Positions 10,643 to 60,268 of a stretch of 64,000 bases of DNA are shown here, in pieces. A program made the position numbers and the translations under genes. Every line of letters starts with the position of its first letter. Position 1 is the stretch's first letter. Under the pieces are notes generated by a model. It was not told where the DNA came from, made no database searches, and saw only the letters and a program-made list of their open reading frames with translations. The stretch is from Zhaonella formicivorans. Lineage in GTDB: Bacteria; Bacillota; DUOV01; Zhaonellaceae. The stretch lies in assembly GCF_004353525.1 (NCBI RefSeq), contig NZ_CP085524.1, positions 1,398,142-1,462,141 of the forward strand, given 5' to 3'.

Positions 10643-10665
10643 ACTCCCGCAATGTTAGCGGGAGT
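10643..10665. repeat. Hairpin flanking repeat elements (left copy)
   Basis: A perfect-stem hairpin (ACTCCCGC / GCGGGAGT) nearly identical (20 of 23 bases) to 11073-11095. The two copies bracket the palindromic elements at 10671-11062. On the minus strand this copy is followed by a T-rich stretch and resembles a working terminator. Confidence 0.75.
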
Positions 10666-10670
10666 CAGAC

Positions 10671-10807
10671 TGTAGACAAAGCTCGCATGTATTATTTCGC
10701 TCTGGACAAGCTCGCACGCCGTTACCGGCGGCAAAGCCGCCGACGGCTGAGCGAAACAAGTCCCGCTCCATAATACATGCGAGCTACCAAGAATTTTGTC
10801 GACAGAC
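10671..10807 (+). repeat. Palindromic element family A, copy 1
   Basis: A ~137-bp imperfect palindrome. Ends: TGTAGACAAAGC and its near complement GTCGACA. Inner inverted repeats CGCATGTATTAT / ATAATACATGCG. The centre folds as a strong GC stem around GGCGGCAAAGCCGCC. Other copies lie at 35718-35853 and 60122-60256 (opposite orientation) and 46898-47026 (same orientation). It has no coding capacity. Confidence 0.85.
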
Positions 10808-10845
10808 ACCCATGCTGCTGTGCAGCACCATCAGAAGAATGAAAA

Positions 10846-11062
10846 ATTGTAACCCATTGTGTGCAGCTGCGACATATGACAAGCCATAGAGCGCTCTGTG
10901 AAGAGTTTGACTGTAAGCGGCCGAGCAGCATGGACGCTGCGAGAGCGCTGGAGTGGCATGGACGCCGCGTCAGCGCGTGCCGCTGGAAGTCAAACGATGA
11001 GCAGAAGCAGCGCTCTTGGCGAAGTCATCCCGGAGCAGCAGACACAAGGGTTAACATTTTGA
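10846..11062. repeat. Long imperfect palindrome, family B
   Basis: The left arm (from TAACCCATTGTGT through AGAGCGCTCT to GAGTTTGACT) is matched by the complement of the right arm (AGTCAAAC ... AGCGCTCT ... ACACAAGGGTTA), making a ~217-bp interrupted palindrome. A half-copy occurs at 45045-45100. Confidence 0.7.
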
Positions 11063-11072
11063 GGGTAGCCTG

Positions 11073-11095
11073 ATTCCCGCTATGTTTGCGGGAGT
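11073..11095 (-). terminator. Terminator-like hairpin after typA (right copy of duplicated hairpin)
   Basis: Eight-bp stem with a 7-base loop, 17 bases after the typA stop on the minus strand, lacking a clear T-run. It duplicates the hairpin at 10643-10665. Confidence 0.55.
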
Positions 11096-34176: not shown

Positions 34177-34319
34177 AAAAAAGCCAGGCGGGTAGAAAGA
34201 GCCTGGCTTTTAAATAACACAAGGAACCCCTTTCCACATTGGGAGGCATAGCAGTTTCCCGCTATACCCTATGGACTTTACTCCATGGCCGAAGCTTTAG
34301 GCGGTAAAGTTCGGAGCAT
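34177..34319 (-). ncRNA. Moco (molybdenum/tungsten cofactor) riboswitch with terminator
   Basis: The minus-strand leader of tupA has the blocks I associate with the Moco RNA: GCTCCGAAC, CGGCCATGGAGTAAAG, a GNRA-capped P3-like stem (TAGCGG-GAAA-CTGCTA) and GCCTCCCAA followed by GGAAAGG. CTCC pairs with GGAG and CTTT with AAAG. A strong terminator follows (34177-34210: AAAGCCAGGC / GCCTGGCTTTTTT), fitting ligand-controlled termination. The P3-like stem favours Moco over the tungsten variant. Identification is from memory of the consensus. Confidence 0.7.
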
Positions 34320-34429
34320 AAAAATAAAATATGGAGTTGTTACATAAAATTTATTCTACGTACAAAAACTGATACCTGCTGTTCTTAAAAATTATTCGGC
34401 TAGGGCAGAATACATATTTCAACAAAAAA

Positions 34430-35694: not shown

Positions 35695-35717
35695 AGCGGG
35701 TAGTCATAACCCGCTTT
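35694..35717 (+). terminator. Terminator after fprA (left copy of duplicated hairpin)
   Basis: Stem AAGCGGGT / ACCCGCTT right at the stop codon followed by a short T tract. A near copy is at 35860-35880, beyond the inserted family A element. Confidence 0.75.
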
Positions 35718-35853
35718 AGACCGTCGAAAAACTATTATTAGCCCGCATGTATTATGGAGCGGGACTGGTTTCCTCAGCCGTCGGCGGCTTTGCCGCCGGT
35801 AACGGCGTAGGAGCTTGTCCAGAGCGAAATAATACATGCGGGCTTTGTCTACA
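35718..35853 (-). repeat. Palindromic element family A, copy 2
   Basis: A ~136-bp copy in the orientation opposite to copy 1. The right end TTTGTCTACA equals the complement of the copy 1 left end. The inner repeats CGCATGTATTAT / ATAATACATGCG and the central GGCGGC-TTT-GCCGCC stem are conserved. Confidence 0.85.
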
Positions 35854-35859
35854 AGCTGA

Positions 35860-35880
35860 AGGGGTAGTCATTACCCGCTT
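35860..35880. repeat. Right copy of the fprA terminator hairpin
   Basis: Matches 35696-35714 at 16 of 19 bases (GGGTAGTCATxACCCGC) and also ends in T-rich sequence. The two copies bracket family A copy 2. The following 35881-36035 holds no gene except the leader of the next one. Confidence 0.7.
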
Positions 35881-45759: not shown

Positions 45760-45773
45760 CGTAATTCTCCTTT

Positions 45774-45850
45774 CGGCAGCTGGCTGCCATAGCTTTCAGC
45801 TTTAGGCCCTATAGCTTTGCGTCACCGGCTTTAGCCGGTTTTGCCTTTTC
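45774..45850 (-). ncRNA. Cyclic-di-GMP-I riboswitch (GEMM-I)
   Basis: The minus strand reads GGCAAAACCGGC-TAAA-GCCGGTGACGCAAAGC (two blocks), then GGGCCTAAAGC-TGAAAGCTATGGCAGCC. These are the hallmark blocks of the GEMM-I aptamer: P2 hairpin, conserved GACGCAAAGC, GGGCCUAA and AUGGCAGCC. The closing P1 strand (TGCC) lies directly before the AAAGGAG ribosome site of the downstream gene, pointing to translational control; no terminator lies between. Confidence 0.92.
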
Positions 45851-45926
45851 GTTGGTTACTATTTTACTTTGCTATTTTTGCAATAAATCCTCCTTTGCAG
45901 GCTTAACTTAGTTAAAATTTTTATTT

Positions 45927-46838: not shown

Positions 46839-46897
46839 TCACCTGCATAATTAAAAAACTGACCCCCTATCCTACAAGGATAGTAAGAGCCAGCTTA

Positions 46898-47026
46898 TGA
46901 ACACTTCTCAAATGTATTATTTGCTCTGGACAAGCTCGCACACCGTTAGCGGCTGCAAAGCCTTCGGCCTAGGGCGAAACCTGTCCCGCTCCATAATACA
47001 TTCGAGCACATAATAGTTTGTTGACA
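46898..47026 (+). repeat. Palindromic element family A, copy 3 (diverged)
   Basis: The most diverged copy: the TIR is ATGTATTAT / ATAATACAT, the left outer end is decayed and the right end is TTTGTTGACA. It lies between converging genes and next to a hairpin at 46869-46885 (CTATCCT-ACA-AGGATAG). Confidence 0.75.
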
Positions 47027-47066
47027 GCCCGACACTCAAGCCTTATAAAGCAGGGAGGTGTTTTAG

Positions 47067-60088: not shown

Positions 60089-60121
60089 GTAAACACCCCT
60101 TACTAAATAGTAAGAGGCTCA

Positions 60122-60256
60122 GACCGTTGACAAACTCCTTTAGCCCGCATGTATTATGGAACGGGACTTGTTTCGCTCAGCCGTCGGCAGCTTTGCCAAA
60201 GGTCAACGCGTGCGAGCTTGTCCAGAGCGAAATAATACATGCGGGCTTTGTCTACA
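60122..60256 (-). repeat. Palindromic element family A, copy 4
   Basis: A ~135-bp copy oriented like copy 2: left GTTGACAAACTCC, inner CGCATGTATTAT / ATAATACATGCG, right TTTGTCTACA. It lies between converging genes and after the small hairpin TTACTA-AA-TAGTAA. Confidence 0.85.
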
Positions 60257-60268
60257 AGCTGGGCTTTT

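Follow-up and report, generated by a model that had tools for sequence, protein, structure and literature searches.

Four copies of one short palindromic element lie in the window, by which we mean the whole 64,000-nucleotide stretch of the Zhaonella formicivorans genome analysed here, and sequence comparison aligns them to one another in both orientations, as the original prediction had stated. Copy 1, a ~135-bp palindromic unit (10671..10807, minus strand) recognised by alignment, by its 96% match to the consensus and by its fold, sits inside a 407-bp composite element (10666..11072, minus strand). Reading of the sequence shows that the composite joins a part from a ~265-bp family (left end CAGGCTACCCTC) to a part from the ~135-bp family (right end TTTGTCTACAGTCTG). 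Its left end is unusual (CAGRCTACCCTC), and the same junction was also found at loci L027, L030 and L044. The duplicated target hairpin of the composite flanks it as 23-bp repeats that differ at three positions. The left hairpin copy (ACTCCCGCAAACATAGCGGGAAT, 11073..11095, minus strand) lies 16 bp past the stop codon of a BipA-like gene, in which BipA domains were found; the right copy (ACTCCCGCTAACATTGCGGGAGT, 10643..10665, minus strand) agrees with it by inspection at 20/23 positions.

Copy 2 is a 142-bp MITE (35717..35858, plus strand) bounded by a 22-bp hairpin repeat, with the left hairpin copy (AGCGGGTAGTCATAACCCGCTT, 35695..35716, plus strand) directly 3' of a flavodiiron-like gene and the right copy (AAGGGGTAGTCATTACCCGCTT, 35859..35880, plus strand) at the other side. 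Copies 3 and 4 each lie between convergent gene ends. Copy 3 is a decayed 141-bp MITE (46891..47031, minus strand; boundaries by inspection) in whose flanks inspection recognised no direct repeat. Copy 4 is a 142-bp MITE (60120..60261, plus strand) at which the gapped flank comparison detected no repeat; a hairpin (CCCCTTACTAAATAGTAAGAGG, 60096..60117, plus strand) stands to its left, and by inspection the right side retains only GGCTTTTTT.

Compared with shuffled sequences, copies 1, 2 and 4 fold far better as single strands (z −3.5 to −8; −7 to −8 for copy 1); folding is less pronounced in copy 3 (z −1.7 and −3.2). A search of the window against Rfam placed no family over any of the four copies and matched only two riboswitches elsewhere, a molybdenum cofactor (Moco) riboswitch at 34211-34328 (minus strand, 68.7 bits) and a c-di-GMP-I riboswitch at 45772-45855 (minus strand, 80.2 bits).

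The four copies are part of a family with about 45 copies in the genome. The whole-genome search recommended by the original prediction returned 40 strong full-length matches to the element consensus in the 3.31-Mb genome, and 45 sites match a 27-bp internal stretch with at most three mismatches, compared with 0 for a reversed-pattern control. When the ends alone were searched for (CAGNNNGTNGACAAA), 72 sites were found versus 5 for the control; many of the end pairs are spaced 142, about 200, about 265 or 408 bp apart and enclose quite different interiors, the ends common to all length classes being CAGACCGTCGACAAA...TTTGTCTACAAGCTG. The unit proper extends from CAG to CTG over 142 bp, rather than the ~135 bp first proposed. 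It is short, non-coding and multi-copy, and its ends of ~15 bp (CAG..YGTMGACAAA) are inverted at the two sides. Just inside the ends are arms (AGCCCGCATGTATTAT / ATAATACATGCGGGCT), followed by a GC-rich core. The arms differ among copies yet mostly remain complementary, and in some copies the changes are compensated (AGCCAG/CTGGCT, AGCAAG/CTTGCT, AGCTCG/CGAGCT).

Several members depart from this plan. In L021 and L024 the core (about 1501-1605 in each) lies in the opposite orientation with respect to the ends, which suggests recombination between the inverted arms. The ~200-bp variant (L033, L034, L035, L038, L039, L040 and L045) carries an extra insert inside the core with GGGGACA...TGTCCCC arms, a nested repeat of another kind. 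Unpaired single ends with no second end nearby occur at L046 (genome coordinate 2299905) and L034 (2432562) and are apparently truncated elements.

To characterise insertion sites, left and right flanks were compared with gaps, using as threshold the 99th percentile of mis-paired flanks. Direct repeats above this threshold flank 36/51 paired-end elements and in most cases abut the element ends. A stem of at least 6 pairs is present in 96% of the 27 repeats that could be scored cleanly (16-32 bp), compared with 2% of random genomic stretches; L002 (AAGCGACCTTTGGTCGCTT) and L015 (AAACCTGGTAATAAACATATTTACCAGGTTT) are examples with the identical hairpin on both sides. What is duplicated at the target is thus the complete stem-loop, with one copy of the hairpin standing in direct orientation at either end of the element. 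The terminator-like hairpin that had been noted beside each element is, in the intact copies, this duplicated target, and its presence on both sides had been missed. The proposed preference for terminators is upheld, and the claim that elements occur only at gene 3' ends holds for most of them, with 46/50 classified elements touching a gene 3' end under a simple ORF-based rule. The hairpin copies at L045 (genome 1862918-1863118) now differ from each other, and the changes come in pairs (AGCCAGC..GCTGGC versus AGCCGGC..GCCGGC) that leave both stems intact.

The MITEs and their autonomous partner, described below, show the same whole-hairpin duplication behaviour. Across 66 target sites, the duplicated stretch is 19 to 42 bp long (mean 26), and base pairing is about 95% inside it and 77% at its outermost base. 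Beyond its edges, pairing starts at 76% and has come close to the 45% background within three bases. Of the 66 sites, 61 have a T4 or A4 tract. Together, the pairing profile and these tracts would place the join in the A/T-rich foot of the terminator stem.

An autonomous element with the same ends, which the original prediction had proposed to look for, was found in other genomes and not in that of the window (G000), where the search yielded no P0001-like (partner) transposase. Matches to the partner transposase occur in 17/299 genomes of the phylum. In the genome G038 about 34 pairs of ends were located, mostly with a spacing of 1595 bp; the 1595-bp element ends in CAGACTGTCGACAAA...TTTGTCTACAAGCTG, its 15-bp ends being nearly identical to the MITE ends. 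A full 486-codon gene is kept in 12/15 of the single-length G038 copies fetched. Against the IS1182 equivalog model NF033551 its 486-aa product scores 468.5 bits, well past the curated cut-off of 270, and contains the domains PF13751, PF05598 and PF01609; judged by these sequence matches, the protein is an IS1182-family DDE transposase. In other genomes, nearly identical 15-bp ends bound complete insertion sequences of the IS1182 family, which supports the earlier view of the window copies as non-autonomous mobile elements; they differ from the insertion sequences in encoding no protein.

All ten of the sampled G038 insertions (10/10) are flanked by perfect whole-hairpin repeats of 22-35 bp, and relatives in other genomes at 43-72% identity behave in the same way. 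Among 78 loci of relatives in named genomes, a repeat is detectable in 56, and all 56 are whole hairpins of 19-42 bp; no repeat was detectable at the remaining 22/78, some of them because they lie at contig ends. A 25-bp hairpin repeat also accompanies an element of 39% identity on an Aminobacter (proteobacterial) plasmid; one ISEfa7 copy showed no such repeat.

Within the window's genome, the IS1182-model matches at L071-L074, which score 84-98 bits and fall below the cut-off, were considered as partners and rejected. Three of them (L071, L072 and L073) are copies of a 1707-bp insertion sequence whose 441-aa transposase frame shows weak similarity to the IS1182 model, and have different ends (GAGCTAATTG...AAAAAGCTC) and 5-bp repeats; the fourth, L074, has no convincing ends. 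None of the single-ended sites traced in this genome led to an autonomous element. Because no P0001-like transposase was found there, the elements of the window's genome look like orphaned MITEs and are probably immobile relics, and for the same reason their link to the partner rests on shared ends and target behaviour.

Comparison with relatives, where the original prediction had suggested looking for empty sites, supplied four such sites, all corresponding to G038 insertions of the autonomous partner. Queries were built by joining the G038 flanks with one hairpin copy removed. For all four insertions, G249, which belongs to another species of the same genus, has a corresponding element-free site with a single hairpin. 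The alignment runs straight through the junction at three of the four sites, and at the fourth (L164) the close-up alignment reaches up to and including the single hairpin.

Hairpin targeting is already known in the IS1182 family from IS1272, and whole-hairpin duplication was previously hypothetical in the literature accessible to us. IS1272 and TnSha1 of staphylococci, members of this family, insert at hairpins whatever their primary sequence, and many of these hairpins are terminators (PMC4923244, PMC5678879). With IS1272 the stem-loop is lost or replaced and no duplication arises, whereas here the whole stem-loop is duplicated. Duplication of a whole stem-loop was drawn as a hypothetical pathway in PMC5678879 (Fig. 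13, pathway b), which also points to an earlier review that mentions palindrome targeting without detailed data. Our search of the accessible literature, with most subscription journals outside it, found no report of whole-hairpin duplication by IS1182 elements, and only the two IS1272 papers surfaced. The family is reportedly listed in ISfinder with a very wide range of repeat lengths. Published duplications for ISPse1 (PMC3281130) and ISCaa15 (PMC3196728) are 4 bp and not whole hairpins. The ISMac2 MITEs of Methanosarcina acetivorans are likewise non-autonomous IS1182-family derivatives, 160-169 bp long with direct repeats of 4 bp or 0, and no hairpin duplication is reported for them (PMC3852290). 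ISCfr1, a distant IS1182 member (28% identity to P0001), has a DDE transposase and the same family name but differs in its ends (ATTCTGTTGAAAAAG) and in a 6-bp repeat, CGGCCG, in one copy examined.

We consider it very probable, at roughly 0.92, that the four copies are MITEs which a DDE transposase of the IS1182 family moved in trans and joined to the feet of terminator hairpins, with duplication of the stem-loop. Of the two classes named in the original prediction, MITE or REP-like, the former fits; the latter is unsupported, since the ends used for mobilisation are terminal inverted repeats of the DDE type. The elements do recall REP/BIME repeats: they are short, palindromic, extragenic and abundant, and their GC-rich core starts GGAG or GTAG and is an independent repeat in related genomes. 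Movement by a REP-associated tyrosine (HUH) transposase is nonetheless very unlikely, given ends that match DDE-type IS1182 terminal repeats, and is weakened further by the long target duplications seen here. REP/BIME repeats are mobilised by another class of enzyme and make no target duplication, and HUH single-strand transposition would not be expected to yield long duplications. Still less weight falls on a structured RNA gene or a 3'-UTR regulatory RNA kept by selection with no mobile element involved: the strong folds and the compensated arm changes of some copies would suit it, but the copies lie at unrelated loci where each duplicates the local hairpin, and elements with unrelated interiors have the same ends and behaviour. 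The original prediction would itself have given up its mobile-element reading for want of both further copies and empty sites, or in favour of a conserved RNA gene; the genome holds over 40 copies, and no Rfam family matches.

The two flanking hairpins could also be thought to arise by tandem duplication or terminator-terminator recombination rather than by transposition, and a few elements do have different hairpins on their two sides (e.g., L095 in G038). This is most improbable, given that almost every intact element has its repeats no more than a few bases from its ends, and that the sister species G249 has the single hairpin without the element. Insertion that replaces or deletes the stem-loop, with a coincidental second hairpin, has a precedent in the blunt stem-loop deletion without duplication by IS1272/TnSha1 (PMC4923244, PMC5678879), and window copy 4 has no repeat. 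Yet a stem-loop is found on both sides in 36/51 MITEs and 10/10 sampled G038 insertions, the repeats are identical or nearly so within a locus and different between loci, and the single-hairpin empty sites in G249 contradict replacement as well; we regard it as equally improbable.

Under the preferred reading, transposition of the MITEs by an IS1182-type enzyme, the transposase would bind the ~15-bp ends, mobilise the element and join it, on each strand, to the 5' foot of an intrinsic-terminator hairpin in the target. Joining at the 5' feet would leave repair synthesis to copy the entire stem-loop to both sides. Target duplications of DDE enzymes are normally short and of nearly fixed length, set by enzyme geometry, and a linear stagger so long and variable would be unusual for such an enzyme. 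If the hairpin were extruded as a cruciform, its two feet would be placed side by side, and this adjacency may explain the variable duplication length. The observations suggest a transposase that reads the shape of a target and not its sequence.

The GC-rich core of the window elements is also an abundant repeat in G002, G083, G117 and G145 (L248-L277), where it was found by similarity search, the exact core pattern being too strict in these genomes. Its outer arms there are locus-specific yet complementary, with 7.5 of 8 pairs compared with 3.0 pairs for arms taken from other loci of the same genome, at an offset chosen to maximise pairing. Several core loci resemble terminators with the core in the loop, such as L250 (AAAGGCCC[core]GGGCCTTTT). 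The core may be a second hairpin-associated, possibly hairpin-directed mobile repeat captured between IS1182-type ends. More broadly, we think it rather likely that much of the IS1182 family gauges its target by shape and not by length, joining both strands at the feet of an extruded terminator hairpin with a duplication equal to the hairpin length, and that the core is perhaps a separate hairpin-directed element.

In many species the duplication is as long as the hairpin it copies, so that recognition of DNA cruciforms can be tested directly in living cells. IS1272 removes its hairpin, and set beside it these elements form a natural pair for finding the part of the transposase that decides between duplication and replacement. 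The proposed insertion also gives a simple account of how many such elements could build up with little harm: one hairpin copy would be left beside the T-tract, so that the gene could keep its terminator and such sites would tolerate insertion.
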